Below are positions 2,141 to 15,078 of a DNA stretch of 64,000 nt, in pieces. The DNA is taken from assembly GCF_019711415.1 (NCBI RefSeq), contig NZ_JAIGNJ010000001.1, forward strand, positions 613,001 to 677,000. Direction: 5' to 3'. Each line of letters opens with the position of its first letter. Position 1 is the first letter of the stretch. The DNA comes from Qipengyuania vesicularis (GTDB taxonomy: Bacteria; Pseudomonadota; Alphaproteobacteria; Sphingomonadales; Sphingomonadaceae). A program made the translations under genes and the position numbers. Under the pieces are notes generated by a model, which had not been told where the DNA came from, ran no database searches, and worked only from the letters and a program-made list of their open reading frames with translations.

Positions 2141-5056
<2,916 letters not shown>

Positions 5057-5081
5057 GGCCAGTTTGGTCCCGACTTCCACC

Positions 5082-5990
5082 TCAATTGAGTCCGATTGAG
5101 GTCACGATCAAGAAGGCCTGCCCCAAAGCTTCGTCCAAGTTGCCTTCTTCGATGTTCGCCACAAAGAGAGGCAGATCGTTCACGTCGTTCGATGCGCACA
5201 GAAGCCTTTGTTCCGGTTCGTTCTCAAAAACTGCAAGCGAGCGTTTATCGCCCGAGATGCTAACACTCAAGGCAGTCTTCGATCCCCCGATTTGGAGGTG
5301 GCCCAGCTTCCGGTAGATCTCCAGCCGAGCGAGCATGAACATCAAGGCCGCCACGCGACAGACCTTATCGGGACGCTTGGCGTTGGCCGGATAGATGCGG
5401 AAAAAATACTGGATGGAATAGAACAATGCGCGCTGATATGCGTCATGGAATTCAGCCGACGACGTGCTTTTGGCTTTCGTGGCAGCAAGTGCCACTGCAG
5501 CATCCCTATCGGCCTGGATATCGAAGGTCGCAATCCTTGCACGGCCATCAATCGCTTTCAGCAGCTGAACGGTCGAGAACTCCTGGACTCCCTGCGTTCG
5601 GTGGCGCAGCTCGTGAAGGGCAAAAAGGGAAACGGCCTCTTCGAGCGTTTCCCTTACGTCATCCTTCGTGATGCAGATCAGATTGTCGCCCAGTTGGGAT
5701 TTCATGTCGTCGAGCACGTACGCGATCAATCTCGCCACCTCGACTTCGTTCAGCCGGACTTCGCCTTCAGCGATGCTGAAGGCGCCGAATTCCTCATCAA
5801 TCGGCGCGATTTCGATCCTAACAAGATCGGAGAGGGCCGGTTCAAACTTCCGGCCGAGTTCAGCCTTGATGGCATCGTCTGTCGAGATGAGGTCTAGAAG
5901 GATGCTGCATGTCTCAGCAACAGCCTGGGACAGCGCTAAATCCCTTATTACGCGCTCTGCAACACCGGCTTGATTATCGTATTCGCTCAC
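5082..5990 (-). CDS. Putative zincin metallopeptidase (HELRH), unknown family
   Basis: This 302-residue cytoplasmic protein has no recognised full-length family. An HExxH zinc motif, HELRH, lies at residues 126-130. About 27 residues later DIQADRDAAVAL (157-168) resembles the ExxADxxA third-ligand motif of M48 and ImmA/IrrE-type peptidases, with Asp in place of Glu. The GTG start is supported by AAGGGGGG just upstream. It is transcribed divergently from the RHH-like gene at 6252, and two identical inverted repeats lie between them. ImmA/IrrE-type peptidases cleave partner repressors, so a similar role against the neighbour is possible; this is inference. The HExxH could also occur by chance in a non-enzymatic protein. 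Confidence 0.65.
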   Translation of the reverse strand: MSEYDNQAGVAERVIRDLALSQAVAETCSILLDLISTDDAIKAELGRKFEPALSDLVRIEIAPIDEEFGAFSIAEGEVRLNEVEVARLIAYVLDDMKSQLGDNLICITKDDVRETLEEAVSLFALHELRHRTQGVQEFSTVQLLKAIDGRARIATFDIQADRDAAVALAATKAKSTSSAEFHDAYQRALFYSIQYFFRIYPANAKRPDKVCRVAALMFMLARLEIYRKLGHLQIGGSKTALSVSISGDKRSLAVFENEPEQRLLCASNDVNDLPLFVANIEEGNLDEALGQAFLIVTSIGLN

Positions 5991-6077
5991 GACGCCCCCC
6001 TTTTCTGAGGCATTGAACCAGTCCCTTTCCCCCGTCCAAAGGAAGTTTCGCAGGATGGGGTTAGCACCCCTAATGGG

Positions 6078-6092
6078 GTCCTACAACAGGAC
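6078..6092. promoter_or_regulatory. Operator candidate O1, GTCCT-N5-AGGAC
   Basis: Perfect inverted repeat GTCCT-ACAAC-AGGAC in the divergent intergenic region 5991-6251. A second copy with identical arms and spacing lies 74 bp away. This suggests a binding site for a dimeric regulator, possibly the RHH-like protein encoded at 6252. Confidence 0.6.
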
Positions 6093-6151
6093 GAACTTTC
6101 TGTTCGTCGCAAAAAAAGCACCAATTATCGCAAGGAGGGCTTGCCAAGGTG

Positions 6152-6166
6152 GTCCTATAGGAGGAC
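6152..6166. promoter_or_regulatory. Operator candidate O2, GTCCT-N5-AGGAC
   Basis: Perfect inverted repeat GTCCT-ATAGG-AGGAC, with arms identical to the site at 6078-6092. The centre-to-centre distance of 74 bp is close to seven helical turns, so both sites face the same side of the DNA and a loop or cooperative binding is possible. It lies about 86 bases before the 6252 start. Confidence 0.6.
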
Positions 6167-6251
6167 TAAAGAAATACAATGACTCGTTTAAGGGGTCCGT
6201 CAAGCCTTTTTATATGTTGAATTTTATGTCCGTAAAAGTGGGTGCGTCTCT

Positions 6252-6671
6252 ATGAGCAATATTACAGAACGAGGGAGTGAGGGCGCTGTACAAAATAACG
6301 CAAAAGGAAGCGCGAATCGAAAAGGTGAACGGCGCCAATATACTTTAAAAGGTGTCGAGCAGGAGGCTGTTGATTTAATGCGGCTGGCTGCTGATGCCAA
6401 GGGAATGAAAATCGGGCATTGGGTGTCCGATCGAATTAAGGATGCTGCTAAAAAGGCTCTTACTGAAAATGAAAAGCAGCGAGAACTGCTTCAAGGAGTT
6501 GTCGGGGAGGAGCGTGATACGTCTTGTCTCCGGACGCTAAGTTTTTCGGAATCCGGGATGTCTCCGGCCGAAATGGAGGAGCGACTTCGTCGTGTTGAAC
6601 TTGAGATTCAAGATTTGCTCAAACAGCAACGTGATATCTTTGCGCTGATGGCTCAAAAAGCGATGAGTTAG
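6252..6671 (+). CDS. Small ribbon-helix-helix-like protein with C-terminal coiled coil
   Basis: This 139-residue protein has a lower-GC composition than its surroundings. Residues about 27-70 (RRQYTLKGVEQEAVDLM...GMKIGHWVSDRI) have the strand-helix-helix pattern of RHH DNA-binding proteins, with a basic segment before the strand. Residues about 100-130 (PAEMEERLRRVELEIQDLLKQQ) form a predicted coiled coil. It is divergent from the zincin gene and downstream of two inverted-repeat operators, so autoregulation is likely. No good Shine-Dalgarno precedes the ATG. A strong hairpin follows at 6726. Function unknown; a plasmid-type mobilisation or partition accessory RHH protein is an alternative. 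Confidence 0.65.
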   Translation: MSNITERGSEGAVQNNAKGSANRKGERRQYTLKGVEQEAVDLMRLAADAKGMKIGHWVSDRIKDAAKKALTENEKQRELLQGVVGEERDTSCLRTLSFSESGMSPAEMEERLRRVELEIQDLLKQQRDIFALMAQKAMS

Positions 6672-7022
6672 AATTTTGACTGGCGCTTTGGGTAGAAGCG
6701 CGAGTTATTTCGCTCTGTTTGTTGGCCTTCTGGACTTCTTTGTCGGGTCCAGAAGGTCTCTCATTCCTAAATCATAGGCATCGGATGATTTCTCCGGATT
6801 ACTCAGACCCACGAGGCGAACTATGAACTCGGGTTTGTTTAAGCCGACAAGCTCCGGGCGTCATACGCACGTGCGCATTGTCTCCCTCCCGGAAGCCCAA
6901 GTTGCCGGTCGGCCTTTCGTTGGCCGCGCCTCAGTACATTTGGCCAGCCAGCCGTGCGGCAGGTGCTGTACAGAAAGGCTCTTACCGGTCTAGCAGCTTG
7001 ATCAATTGTAACTGCGTCGGCG
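6672..7022. other. Non-coding, lower-GC spacer with degenerate leader copy
   Basis: I see no convincing gene here. The stretch holds the terminator at 6726-6756. Around 6797-6835 it has a degraded version of the leader found before the genes at 7450 and 8288 (ACTCAGACCCACGAGGCGAA followed by an ATGAAC, versus AAACCCATGAGGTGAACC plus ATGAAC). The rest looks like decayed repeat sequence. Confidence 0.5.
6726..6756 (+). terminator. Hairpin terminator after the RHH-like gene
   Basis: Perfect 10-bp stem CCTTCTGGAC / GTCCAGAAGG (6726-6735 and 6747-6756) with an 11-base loop, followed by TCTCTCATT. The T tract is broken, so termination strength is uncertain. Confidence 0.6.
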
Positions 7023-7370
7023 CTAGTTATGGGCTGTGCCATATTCCTTCTCGATCAAGTCTTGGCTTCGTTCAATCAGGCCCCAAATCTCGATACCCTG
7101 TCCGTCTGTGAAACGGATTGCTCCAGATTGGATAAGCATCTTCCGAAGCTCGTTGTCTTCAAAGCCTCCCAAATGGTGCTGAAGGGTCTTAAATGTGCGT
7201 TGCTTCCACTTCGGGTGTTCCAAGAATTTTCGAATGACTGCTTCGGTTTGAAACTGAAGCTTAAATTCCCGCTCCATACGTTTCCTCGCTAGATGAAGAC
7301 CCGTCAGCAGCGTCAAAAATGATGTCACCAACGCTGTGACAATCGTCGTAACGAACTCTCCAAACTCCAA
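7023..7370 (-). CDS. Small membrane-anchored protein of unknown function
   Basis: A 115-residue protein with one N-terminal transmembrane helix (residues about 5-27, FVTTIVTALVTSFLTLLTGLHLA). A positively charged segment and a soluble C-terminal part follow (FEDNELRKMLIQSGAIRFTDG...EIWGLIE), which looks like a compact helical domain of about 60 residues. No family recognised. Lower GC than the core genes, so probably part of the accessory region. Confidence 0.55.
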   Translation of the reverse strand: MEFGEFVTTIVTALVTSFLTLLTGLHLARKRMEREFKLQFQTEAVIRKFLEHPKWKQRTFKTLQHHLGGFEDNELRKMLIQSGAIRFTDGQGIEIWGLIERSQDLIEKEYGTAHN

Positions 7371-7387
7371 AGTTCATCCTTTCGCCT

Positions 7388-7586
7388 CTGTCCTACTTGG
7401 AAGTCACCTTATAGTTGGCTCGGTTTACTGCAACTTCTTAAGGTGAACCATGAACGCTCTCGTCACTATCGAAGCCGCCCCCACCGCCGGTCCTCACGGG
7501 GAGGGGCACACCGTCTTCTCGGCCCGGCGGCAGGCCGAGTTTCTCCAGAACCTCCAACTGTTCGGCAACGTCCGGCTCGCCTGCCA
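7388..7586 (+). pseudogene. Truncated duplicate (leader plus 5' end) of the terminase-small-subunit-like gene at 8288
   Basis: From the ATG at 7450 the first 45 or so codons match the gene at 8288 almost residue for residue (MNALVTIEAAPTAGPHGEGH versus MNALVTVEQAPTAGPHGEGH, then FLQNLQLFGNVRLAC). Homology stops abruptly after the codon for the last Cys, near 7586, and unrelated sequence follows. The upstream leader (CTGTCCTACTTG...TATAGTTGG...GGTGAACC before ATGAACGC) is also shared with 8075-8144. This is a broken tandem copy that lost the HTH and everything after it. Confidence 0.8.
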
Positions 7587-8287
7587 CACGCCACTAACCT
7601 ACGCCCCCTTTCCCCTACATCAAATGATAGCGCGCCATTCTGCCAGCCTGCTACAACCCGCCCATCTCCGGACCCTGTTGTGGCTTTCCGGCGACTGAGA
7701 GAAGCTTCGGCATTGCTCCCGCCCAAGTGCATTGGAGCTGTTTCTTGCCTGACTGGCTGTTTGTAATCCTGGCCGTTTTCACAACGCTGGTGGTCGTCTC
7801 GATCTTCGGCGAGTGGCTGGTGAGCCGCCTGCGCCGCTGAGCGCGCGGCATTTCCCTCTTCCTGGCGCGCGGTGGGTCCGCGCTGTCCTACAGGGACTTT
7901 CCCGAATACATGGTCCGGTTCACTCGTTTTCTGGGCGCTCAAACGCCGCGCGGCGCACCTCCGTGCGCCTTGGGTTGGCACTTCGTGCCTACTCCGCCTT
8001 CGGCTCCGAATCCCTCGCATGTGCTCGGGCGGCCGCTTGGCCTTGCCGTCCGCTGGTCGCGGACGGAAATTGCGCTGTCCTACTTGATTGGCGCCCTATA
8101 GTTGGATCGGTTCACTCAAACCCATGAGGTGAACCATGAACGCCGTATTTTGTTTACGCCCTCAAATGCCGGGTGGCGCACGTCCGTGCGCCTTGGCTTT
8201 CGGCCTAACCGGCCGACGGGCGGTCGCCCTTGCGGTGCGCTGGTCGCGCACCGGAATTTCGCCAATCGCCGGCGTGGGAGGTGTCGT
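7587..8287. repeat. Spacer with tandem repeat of about 192 bp (7881-8072 and 8073-8270)
   Basis: Two head-to-tail units begin at CGCTGTCCTAC (7881 and 8073). Each contains GGTTCACTC, then CTCAAA(C/T)GCCG...GGCGCAC(C/G)TCCGTGCGCCTTGG, and ends with CGCTGGTCGCG(G/C)AC(G/C)GAA. The second unit also carries the gene leader with GGTGAACC before an ATGAACGCC at 8136, which is then interrupted, so that start leads nowhere. The only plausible gene here is the 31-codon frame at 7745. Confidence 0.65.
7745..7840 (+). CDS. 31-residue single-helix membrane miniprotein (candidate)
   Basis: A TTG start is preceded by GGAG at the ideal distance (7734-7737, 7-base spacer). The peptide starts MPDWLFVILAVFTTLVVVSI and ends FGEWLVSRLRR. 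It is one hydrophobic helix with a basic C-terminal end, the layout of small inner-membrane peptides or type I toxins. It lies between repeats in the accessory region. Chance occurrence cannot be excluded in such a short frame. Confidence 0.4.
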   Translation: MPDWLFVILAVFTTLVVVSIFGEWLVSRLRR

Positions 8288-9136
8288 ATGAATGCGCTTG
8301 TGACTGTGGAGCAGGCCCCCACCGCCGGTCCGCACGGGGAGGGGCATACGCTCTTCTCGCCGCGGCGGCAGGGCGAGTTTCTCCAGAACCTCCAGCTGTT
8401 CGGCAATGTCCGGCTCGCCTGCCGGGCGGCGCGGGTTTCGGCGCAGACGGCCTATCGCCAGCGGCGGGCCTCTCCCGCCCTGCGCCAGGCGTGGGATGCG
8501 GCGTTGCTCGCGGCGCGGGACCATGCCGAGCAGGTGCTCGCCGAGCGCGCGCTCGAGGGGTGGGAGGAGGCGGTGTTCTACCATGGCGAGGAGGTGGCGC
8601 GCCGGCGCCGCTATTCCGACCGCCTGCTGCTCGCCCACCTCGCGCGGCTCGACCGCTTGGAGGAGCGCGGGGAGGTGGCGGAGGCGCTCACGCGGCTCGA
8701 TGCGGTGATCGACGGGTTGCGGGAGGGGGAGGCGATCGAGACGTGCTTCCCCGCGCAGGCGGGGACCTCAGTCGGAAGTACCGGACGGCCTGAGGCCCCC
8801 GCCTGCGCGGGGGATCACGAATTACCCCAGGACCGTGTTCCATCCGTTCCATCCTGTAGGGACTGCGGAGGGCAATGCGACGATCCGCGCGCCGATCTGG
8901 GGCCCGAGGATTGCCAATGGCTCGGCAACCGGCTTGCGCGCAGGGAGGCCACGCGGCCTCTGCATGCGCTTTCGCCCGCGAAGCAATGCGATGGCTCGGC
9001 AGAGGAGCGCGACATGATTGACGCGTGGCAGCTCGAGGCGTTCGAGGCGGGAGTGGAGGAGTGGTGGCTCGTCACCAGCGAGGAGGAGCTGGTGGATGCT
9101 GCGGCGGCGGCCTACGAGCGCGATACGCGATCTTAA
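8288..9136 (+). CDS. Terminase-small-subunit-like HTH protein interrupted by an in-frame palindromic element
   Basis: 282 residues; the start is chosen at ATG 8288 because GGAGG lies just upstream and the truncated paralogue begins at the same residue. Residues about 30-70 (NLQLFGNVRLACRAARVSAQTAYRQR) are a homeodomain-like HTH as in phage terminase small subunits and related orphan proteins. Residues 70-140 are helical and charged. Residues about 153-200 are translated from an inserted palindrome (8747-8814) and a GTTCCATCC-type repeat (8831-8857). The frame then continues to an acidic, Trp-rich tail (DAWQLEAFEAGVEEWWLVTSEEELVDAA). No other phage genes are present, so a domesticated DNA-binding protein is more likely than a prophage. 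Confidence 0.65.
   Translation: MNALVTVEQAPTAGPHGEGHTLFSPRRQGEFLQNLQLFGNVRLACRAARVSAQTAYRQRRASPALRQAWDAALLAARDHAEQVLAERALEGWEEAVFYHGEEVARRRRYSDRLLLAHLARLDRLEERGEVAEALTRLDAVIDGLREGEAIETCFPAQAGTSVGSTGRPEAPACAGDHELPQDRVPSVPSCRDCGGQCDDPRADLGPEDCQWLGNRLARREATRPLHALSPAKQCDGSAEERDMIDAWQLEAFEAGVEEWWLVTSEEELVDAAAAAYERDTRS
8747..8814. repeat. Palindromic element inside the 8288 reading frame
   Basis: 25-base arms at 8747-8771 and 8790-8814 are inverted copies with two differences, separated by 18 bases. The core is CCCCGCCTGCGCGGGG flanked by CTGAGG. It is translated in frame without a stop, like the palindromic elements known inside Rickettsia genes. Confidence 0.8.
8831..8857 (+). repeat. Dispersed repeat, copy 1 (GACCGTGTTCCATCC type)
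   Basis: 27-base unit containing the internal direct repeat GTTCCATCCGTTCCATCC. Other copies are at 15320-15346 (same strand) and 21264-21290 (opposite strand). This copy is inside a coding sequence. Confidence 0.8.
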
Positions 9137-13559: not shown

Positions 13560-14266
13560 GCAGAATGCGCACTTGGGTTGGTATGGCGATAGTTGGAGCC
13601 ATGCTAGCCTCGACCGGGTGCTCATCGAACGAACATCCACCGACCTATCGTTATCGCCTGACGGTGGAAGTCGACACGCCAGAGGGCCTCAAGACCGGAT
13701 CGAGCGTGATCGAGGTCGAGCAGCGATTGGGAAGGGCGGGAGGTAGCCCCGCACATAGTGCAATCCGACGGCGGGCGCGCGGAGAAGCGGTCGCTATCGA
13801 GCTGCCGGGCGATCGCACGCTGTTCGCTCTGTTGCGCTCAGAGGACAGCGCAGATTGGGCTGCATATGTGGTGCAGGCCGTATCGCCCACAATCCGCGGT
13901 GAGCCTTGGGAGGAGCAGTTCGACAACATGCTTCAGTTGCGGGGCGAAAGGATCGTGCCCCGTTACTTCAAGCGAATGGTGCGTGGTCGCAGCTCCGGTT
14001 ACCCCCTGCTCGTGACCTTCACCGATCTAGATGAGCCGAGCAGTCTTCAATTGGTCGATCCCGACGATCTGGCCACCACGTTTGGGGAGGACACCTCGAT
14101 AAGCCGCGTAACGGTGCAGATGACGGAGGATCCCGTCACGACCGGCATCGAACAACGATTACGCTGGCTTCCCAAAGTATATGAGTTGGGTTTGGTCAAA
14201 GAAGATTTCCCGGACGGGTTCCCGGTGGGCGATTTCAAGGGTCTATTTGAGAGAGACTTTGATTGA
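13556..14266 (+). CDS. Putative lipoprotein of unknown function
   Basis: 236 residues, start ATG overlapping the acyltransferase stop. The signal peptide ends in a lipobox-like STGC at about residue 21 (AMLASTGCSS). The mature protein (TYRYRLTVEVDTPEGLKTGSSVIEV...) is a mostly beta-strand type that I have seen in sphingomonads, with no known activity. It lies between two copies of the acyltransferase 3' end, so it may have arrived as a cassette or by collapse of tandem paralogues. Longer frames extending back into the acyltransferase are shadows. Confidence 0.75.
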   Translation: MSRMRTWVGMAIVGAMLASTGCSSNEHPPTYRYRLTVEVDTPEGLKTGSSVIEVEQRLGRAGGSPAHSAIRRRARGEAVAIELPGDRTLFALLRSEDSADWAAYVVQAVSPTIRGEPWEEQFDNMLQLRGERIVPRYFKRMVRGRSSGYPLLVTFTDLDEPSSLQLVDPDDLATTFGEDTSISRVTVQMTEDPVTTGIEQRLRWLPKVYELGLVKEDFPDGFPVGDFKGLFERDFD

Positions 14267-14276
14267 AGGCCCAGCC

Positions 14277-14405
14277 ATGACCGCCGCCATCAGCATCGCC
14301 AGCCCCGATGGCGTGACCGGCGTGCGCCTATGGGTCGTGGCACTGCTGTTTGTCGGAGCCGCGCTAGTGGGCTTCGGGCCGGTCTATCGGTGGGTGCGGT
14401 CGTAG
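14277..14405 (+). pseudogene. Second copy of the acyltransferase 3' end (42-codon open frame)
   Basis: From ATG 14277 the sequence repeats the last 43 codons of the acyltransferase gene (13428 onward) with nine differences in the first 120 bases. Six of the eight changed codons are synonymous, which means this copy evolved as coding sequence before or after the duplication. The reading frame is intact to TAG and encodes one hydrophobic helix with a YRWVRS end. It may be a remnant of a second acyltransferase gene or, less likely, a functional miniprotein. Confidence 0.75.
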
Positions 14406-14499
14406 GGGGAGGAGGTGTCCGTGAAACAGTGTTCGTTCTTCACGAGATTATAAATCAGCCATCGTAGGATTGTGTCGGTCATGTTCTAGGGGCACCAAT

Positions 14500-15078
14500 T
14501 TGTTCTTCCAAAGCAATCCGATATCAGGTGGCGAAAAGTGGGCGGAGATTTGCTGGCTTAGTGACGAGCTTTGCGACTGGCTCACGGAAGTCCTTCAAGA
14601 TCTTGAGGTCGAGGGTAAAATCGGCACCGTATGGTATCGTCCACTTTGCTTGCCAAAGGAATTTTCCCATTTCGAGGAGTACTTCGGGGTTCGGGAAGGC
14701 GGTACCGTACTGACTATCTCCCCGAAGGTAGATTACGATAAATTCAGTTGCGATGACCGAGCCTCGGCCTCACGGTTGCTTCTCGCAGGACTTACGGACG
14801 GACTGCGAAAGTTCCTTGAGAGGGGTCGGTACAAGAAGCCATTGGCGGCGATGATCTCTCAAATTGAACAGGTGAGGATCGAAGACTTCGTCGCCTCCAT
14901 ACGCACAAAGAAAATGGACCGGCCCAGGCCGAAGGACAAAGATCCGCTGACAGTGGAGAAACTTGAGGCAGTTCTCGCCGACTGGCCGGATCATAGGACC
15001 AAGGCCGAACGAAAGCTGATCGAGCGACATCTGGTAAGGCTGAAAGAAGAGGAAGCTCGTACAGAAGACCAAGGTTAG
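14500..15078 (+). CDS. Hypothetical protein in variable region
   Basis: 192 residues from a TTG start chosen because AGGGG lies 7 bases upstream (14488-14492); a TTG at 14470 is possible but lacks a site. The protein is soluble and has no recognised motif. It has a GVREGGTVLTISPKVDYDKFS segment and a charged, coiled C-terminus (TKAERKLIERHLVRLKEEEA). GC is clearly lower than in core genes. It is flanked by the second and third copies of the acyltransferase 3' end, so horizontal arrival is likely. Confidence 0.55.
   Translation: MFFQSNPISGGEKWAEICWLSDELCDWLTEVLQDLEVEGKIGTVWYRPLCLPKEFSHFEEYFGVREGGTVLTISPKVDYDKFSCDDRASASRLLLAGLTDGLRKFLERGRYKKPLAAMISQIEQVRIEDFVASIRTKKMDRPRPKDKDPLTVEKLEAVLADWPDHRTKAERKLIERHLVRLKEEEARTEDQG

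Follow-up and report, generated by a model that had tools for sequence, protein, structure and literature searches.

A divergent gene pair for a zincin-like and an RHH-like protein in a low-GC slot beside uvrA of Qipengyuania vesicularis

Analysis of a 64,000-nucleotide stretch of Qipengyuania vesicularis DNA (the window) located a divergent pair of genes, coding for a zincin-like protein and an RHH-like protein, in a slot between uvrA and an HTH-type gene. This location is the new finding; an initial annotation had noticed the two proteins and suggested that they form a proteolytic switch. The pair is also carried by two other genomes, G043 of the same genus and G423 of another genus of the family. 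We estimate at roughly 45 % the probability that it is a self-contained two-gene defence or conflict cargo in which an RHH autorepressor, perhaps an antitoxin, would restrain a zinc-protease effector. A literature search by title, with most subscription papers beyond its reach, found no paper on the pair or on the uvrA site.

The gene pair

The zincin-like protein (302 amino acids, GTG start; hereafter the protease) is encoded at 5082..5990 on the minus strand and the RHH-like protein (139 amino acids) at 6252..6671 on the plus strand. Both ORFs are present where the initial annotation had placed them, and a gap of 261 bp separates them. Relatives of the protease occur in G043 and G423, with a relative of the RHH-like protein encoded beside each. 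Comparison of the two genes between G043 and G423 gave pN values of 0.27 and 0.33 and pS values of 0.83 and 0.87 (saturated). Since amino-acid-changing differences are far below silent ones, both ORFs are real genes, and purifying selection appears to act on both. The same slot also harbours a 115-aa ORF (7023..7370, minus strand) that is not conserved with the pair: an ORF with 50 % identity is located next to an AriA-like gene in locus L061, and no relative was found in the loci of G423 (L006) and G043 (L007).

The protease-like protein

The HELRH motif is located at residues 126-130 (5601..5615, minus strand), and the downstream DxxADRDAA motif reported in the initial annotation is present as DIQADRDAA at residues 157-165 (5496..5522, minus strand), a candidate for the third metal ligand. 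H126, E127, R129 and H130 are constant in all three protease sequences, as are D157, A160, D161, R162, D163 and A164, and both relatives keep HExRH and DxxADRDA. Residues 116-175 form the region that best matches the relatives, with 23/60 and 27/60 identical positions. A non-helical HELRH region would have spoken against the initial annotation; in the structure model, which is weak (mean pLDDT 64), the motif lies within a predicted helix (109-132), and D157, D161 and D163 lie within another (150-172).

Searches of Pfam, NCBIfam, PHROGs and PADLOC yielded no convincing family for either protein of the pair, which bears out the earlier impression that neither matches the ImmA/ImmR families. PF06114 (peptidase M78) did not match the protease at E<=10, while this family is present elsewhere in the same genome (G000:C2:30433-30804); membership of the ImmA/IrrE group of M78 was therefore rejected. 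Most M78 relatives from the sampled genomes, inspected by eye, do not contain HExxH. The best Pfam hint for the protease was DUF6782 (PF20573), a family of putative metallopeptidases that resembles it in having HE[LF]RHxxQ followed by a later [I/M]EADA or ADRDA motif. The protease reached 13.1 of the required 27 bits and profile comparison gave 31 % probability over 16 columns. The two relatives' proteases were not matched up to E 1, leaving one matching member out of three. As the score is below the curated cut-off, membership of DUF6782 was rejected as well. A literature search on DUF6782, to which most subscription papers were inaccessible, found nothing. Comparison of the protease with solved structures gave no convincing sequence match, and a fold search with the weak model gave nothing significant.

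The RHH-like protein

A putative RHH core was assigned to residues 28-70 (6333..6461, plus strand) of the partner protein, which contains an RQYTLK stretch. Two helices (32-49 and 54-85) are predicted, in a block with pLDDT values mostly between 75 and 92; the single-chain model shows no strand. They are followed by a low-confidence stretch (residues 84-98) and a predicted C-terminal helix at residues 105-138 (6564..6665, plus strand). A Foldseek search against the PDB returned 24 matches, all with E-values of 1.1 or worse, and the nine best of these 24 are RHH proteins (Arc six times, TacA2, NikA and AtaR2). Five Arc chains superpose on the model at 0.4-0.6 Å over 32-33 columns. With its two helices and Arc-like matches the protein looks RHH-like, as in the initial annotation; the tail, described there as a coiled coil, is a predicted helix. 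No Pfam RHH family and no HTH family matched the protein, and the weak partial matches obtained include YdiH (E 0.007) and phrog_34863 (E 0.002, unknown function). Matches of the RHH profile to polyubiquitin were discarded as an artefact of weak repeats being summed.

The intergenic region

The gap between the genes contains two palindromes of the type GTCCT-N5-AGGAC, regarded as putative operators, at 6078..6092 (centre 95 bp from the protease start) and 6152..6166 (centre 93 bp from the RHH start). The two operators had been annotated as identical; this holds for their arms, but the centres differ and the 24-nt registers are 75 % alike. Two copies of GTCCT-N5-AGGAC occurred in none of 100 shuffles of the window, a test for which the pattern was chosen after the fact. 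When twin perfect inverted repeats of any sequence were counted in the gap of 261 bp, 51 of 5000 shuffles (about 1 %) had one as well, so the twin palindromes are suggestive, not decisive. The 2.71-Mb genome contains six GTCCT-N5-AGGAC sites, two of them in this gap, compared to four for the reversed control pattern.

GTCCT-N5-AGGAC is absent from the gaps of G043 and G423, and no other twin perfect palindrome is present there. These two gaps have the blocks GGAAGACTTTTGGGGT and ACCCTTGAAGTAGG in common, at a distance of 97 bp, start to start, in both genomes. By eye, one block resembles the other when it is read on the opposite strand (ACTT-N3-GGGT). The twin palindromes of the window, together with two blocks at fixed spacing in the relatives, make it likely that the gap is a control region with two sites, the sequence of which would vary between lineages. 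A scan for sigma-70-type promoters detected nothing promoter-like in the gap; its one site lies within the RHH gene, and the number is no higher than in shuffles.

Relatives and distribution

It had been proposed to look for the same pair in other sphingomonads, its absence being named as a refuting result; G043 and G423 harbour it, divergent and beside uvrA. All three genomes with the protease have a divergent RHH gene next to it, and in all three loci the protease gene and uvrA are convergent, separated by at most one gene. The pair is rare. Counting the window's own genome, and with genome sets that overlap, the protease was found in 3/396 genomes of the order and 2/60 of the genus; the remaining counts were 2/99 and 1/385 (class genomes). 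It was found in one of 40 genomes of the genus of G423. The RHH sequence was found in 1/61 genomes and its profile in three of 397 family genomes, a sample in which G423 is perhaps not included. These three are the window's own genome, G043 and G988, the last with a weak match (E 1e-6, 43 residues) and no such protease in its 3.1-kb locus. A scan of genome contigs for exact motif patterns, which would miss members not having these patterns, yielded a single relative among 187 pattern stretches, taken to be the same genome as G423.

The proteins of G043 and G423 are 61 % (protease) and 56 % (RHH protein) identical, while those of the window are 27-30 % and 34-36 % identical to these relatives. 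The G043 protease thus shares 61 % identity with its counterpart in another genus and 27 % with that of the window, from its own genus. A G043 pair that is nearer to that of G423 than to that of the window, from its own genus, suggests that the pair was exchanged between lineages and not simply inherited. The protease had no match in plasmids or phage records, and neither the RHH protein nor the slot DNA had one in plasmids. Profile scans of viral contigs for both proteins gave 18 and 19 pattern stretches and zero relatives. With plasmid, phage-record and viral-contig searches all empty, an origin from a mobile element was rejected.

The slot beside uvrA

The left border of the slot is uvrA (2141..5056, plus strand; an ORF of 971 aa), with DNA homology to 42 other loci ending at or before 5059. 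The low-GC accessory slot itself, which holds the pair, spans 5057..about 7440, and its right neighbour is the HTH-type gene (8288..9136, plus strand, open from ATG 8288), to which ORFs with a similar start (MNALV or MNAIV) correspond in position in other loci. The right flank was defined by DNA comparison and ORF reading. At this border (7477..7585, plus strand) the start of the HTH gene is present as a partial copy, 109 bp long and 92 % identical to 8315-8423. To the right of uvrA, homology to the window DNA returns at 7380-7449 in 20 of the 42 loci, at 7493-7510 in four, later in 15 and never in three. Loci L061 and L062 each match one short piece inside the slot of the window. G+C content is 51.6 % for 5057-7387 and 64.8 and 65.6 % on either side.

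The 43 loci compared are those of the window, G423 and G043 and of 40 further genomes of the genus, picked roughly by uvrA similarity; with the window and G043, 42 of 60 genomes of the genus are covered. In 40 of the 43 loci rlpA is located downstream of uvrA, at a distance of 108 to 6794 bp, and the other three reach a contig end. Low-GC stretches were defined as 900 bp with at most 54 % G+C within 3.2 kb of uvrA, and two loci were left out of the slot counts (L074, a contig end, and L079, with a 108-bp interval). Such a stretch is present in 40 of 41 assessable loci, including the window, L066 being the exception. Within the window 2.4 % of the positions (30) satisfy the length and G+C limits, and 29 of them start at 5351-6751. 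The only other 900-bp stretch of the window with at most 54 % G+C is located at about 14151-15050. Among ORFs of at least 80 aa, the pair is the sole low-GC cargo in the slots of G043 and G423, except for one antisense-looking ORF in the latter. In this genus the interval from uvrA to rlpA is an accessory hotspot of one slot, with cargo that is low in G+C and often looks defence-like.

Cargo of the slot and its exchange

The cargo of the slot varies between loci and species, although some kinds recur. Slots L053-L068 were judged from names, first residues and family matches. For each of the 38 loci other than the three with the pair, one main protein, mostly the largest low-GC ORF, was chosen by eye and compared to PADLOC 2.0.0 (2023) at E<=1e-8. 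The main protein matched in 18/38 loci, compared to at most 3/34 for the other genes of the window, a control consisting mostly of conserved genes, with uvrA among the three (one-sided Fisher p 0.0003). By this comparison the slot is a defence-rich site. The matches are to TIR (L042), beta (L043, L048), type II methyltransferase (L046), DndC (L047), PDC-M55C (L052), dCTPase (L054), AbiLi (L055), HEC-06/Orf5 (L056), AriA- or AriAB-like (L061, L073, L077), Old/GajA-like (L063), defence reverse transcriptases (L064, L065), PDC-M66A (L067), part of PsyrT (L068) and AbiU (L071), several of the 18 being candidate families or generic ATPase models. Beside the PADLOC beta protein of L048, an ImmA/IrrE-like ORF of 159 aa with HEIAH (by eye) is present at 7707-8183 (plus strand).

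Pfam families detected among 94 slot ORFs include AIPR (2), GmrSD (2), reverse transcriptase (2), OLD-like TOPRIM (2) and BglII endonuclease (1). The commonest among the 25 families listed of 60 is GerE (LuxR type), with 9 of the 94 ORFs. The main protein had no PADLOC match in 20/38 slots, four of which were scanned via LuxR-type or similar genes. In view of these slots and the LuxR-type regulators, the slot does not serve defence alone. The pair and its relatives did not match PADLOC either, apart from a single hit of one relative at chance level (E 0.008). A possible phage-related role of the pair, raised in the initial annotation, gains indirect support from the slot. Large proteins of other slots had no PADLOC match at E<=1e-8, namely those of L070 (7173-9698, plus strand, 842 aa), L057 (6518-8617, minus strand, 700 aa) and L044 (1419-2876, plus strand, 486 aa), and these are candidates for unknown systems.

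Downstream of the intact uvrA, additional partial copies of its 3' end were detected by DNA comparison in 10 of the 42 loci (L047, L053, L054, L056, L057, L063, L068, L073, L075 and L076) and in three more by protein comparison (L055, L062 and L074). Extra 3' copies are what recombination in the end of uvrA would leave, and they are likely footprints of recombination events that swapped the cargo.

Comparison with known systems

Several known systems resemble the pair. IrrE/DdrO is a pair with a peptidase of the M78 type (COG2856), to be set alongside ImmA/ImmR. Both have an HExxH peptidase-like protein beside a repressor, as found here, but their partner is of the Xre type and encoded in the same operon, whereas here the genes are divergent and PF06114 is not matched. 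ImmA is required for proteolytic inactivation of ImmR (PMC2701414). For CapP, a DNA-damage-activated protease, ssDNA acts as activator and CapH, an HTH repressor of immune operons, is the substrate, both being encoded next to such operons (PMC13373217). CapP/CapH likewise combines a peptidase with a DNA-binding repressor in a defence setting; it differs in having HTH instead of RHH and a neighbouring immune operon, and M78 is unmatched here. Membership of ImmA/ImmR or CapP/CapH was rejected as the partner has RHH-type helices and Arc-like fold matches and no HTH family match; for CapP/CapH, the slots of G043 and G423 moreover contain no adjacent immune operon among ORFs of at least 80 aa.

Lit of prophage e14 is a peptidase that is activated by a phage peptide and cuts EF-Tu (PMC9712102). 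The protease shares with Lit a length of about 300 aa, HExxH and a possible role as anti-phage effector, but lit has no annotated RHH partner gene. A BLASTP comparison with Lit gave nothing beyond chance and the profile match was 0.3 %; in view of this lack of sequence similarity, Lit membership was rejected. The RHH core, helical C-terminal tail and two-gene unit are reminiscent of type II RHH antitoxins (TacA2, AtaR2), but here the partner is peptidase-like and the genes are divergent. A co-directed type II toxin-antitoxin operon was rejected, the genes being divergent in all three loci. Divergent genes are unusual for a toxin-antitoxin pair, a point against the defence-cargo reading given below.

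Possible roles of the pair

As a defence or conflict cargo, the pair may function as follows. The RHH protein would dimerise and bind the two sites in the common promoter region, thereby repressing its own gene and the divergent protease gene; its C-terminal helix may in addition serve to bind the protease, in the way that an RHH antitoxin binds its toxin. Infection or DNA damage would relieve the block, and the freed zinc protease would act as effector, cleaving proteins of the host or the phage much like Lit. This proposal draws on the PADLOC enrichment and low G+C content of the slot, and on the recurrence of the pair beside uvrA with constant motifs and apparent purifying selection on both genes. 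It is also in line with the pair being the sole low-GC cargo in G043 and G423, with a cross-genus identity as expected of exchanged cargo, and with the twin palindromes of the window and the two blocks at 97 bp in the relatives. Lit provides a recorded precedent of a phage-triggered peptidase that cuts EF-Tu (PMC9712102). Against it stand the missing PADLOC match of the pair, shared with 20/38 slots, the generic or candidate nature of several PADLOC matches and the mostly conserved control genes. The protease moreover has a weak model and no fold or sequence match, the palindromes are missing in the relatives and the gap has no promoter-like site.

The proteolytic switch of the initial annotation, in which a signal such as ssDNA would make the protease cut the RHH repressor, derepressing itself and perhaps distant genes, is rather unlikely. 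A recurring unit with a HELRH region predicted to be helical and a peptidase-like protein paired with a DNA-binding repressor agrees with such a switch, and cleavage of CapH by CapP (PMC13373217) and the action of ImmA on ImmR (PMC2701414) are precedents. However, the partner is RHH, not HTH, the genes are divergent and M78 is not matched. Furthermore, among ORFs of at least 80 aa no other low-GC gene was seen as controlled output in two of the three loci (G043 and G423), which leaves the switch less supported. Since a switch without a target gene would be odd cargo, the protease is likelier to be an effector that the RHH protein represses, perhaps also as its antitoxin.

Still less probable is an accessory pair of other use, for instance a stress or metabolic regulator, that by chance occupies a defence-taking slot; this would fit the 20/38 slots not matched by PADLOC, some with LuxR-type regulators, but not the defence-type enrichment of the slot, nor a rare, patchy and fast-diverging pair, which is typical of conflict genes. 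A 302-aa protein without zinc-peptidase function, in which HELRH would be a relic or a structural motif, seems improbable: solved or curated relatives are absent, the third ligand is a candidate and the model is weak, but H126, E127, R129, H130, D157, D161, R162 and D163 are constant in three sequences, two of which share 27-30 % identity with that of the window, and similarity among the proteases peaks at residues 116-175.

The defence-cargo proposal can be extended, more tentatively, to an as yet unnamed class of anti-phage systems. Its protease would belong to a new family of zinc proteases in which an aspartate of DxxADRDA serves as third ligand, and would be silenced by a divergent RHH repressor or antitoxin; the two genes would reside in a one-slot defence hotspot at the uvrA 3' end, the cargo of which is exchanged by recombination in uvrA. 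If true, the known peptidase-repressor pairs would be joined by one in which the protease is the effector and the repressor has a different fold. In sphingomonads, the region at the 3' end of uvrA would then be an easily found place in which the unmatched 20/38 slots may hide further defence genes.
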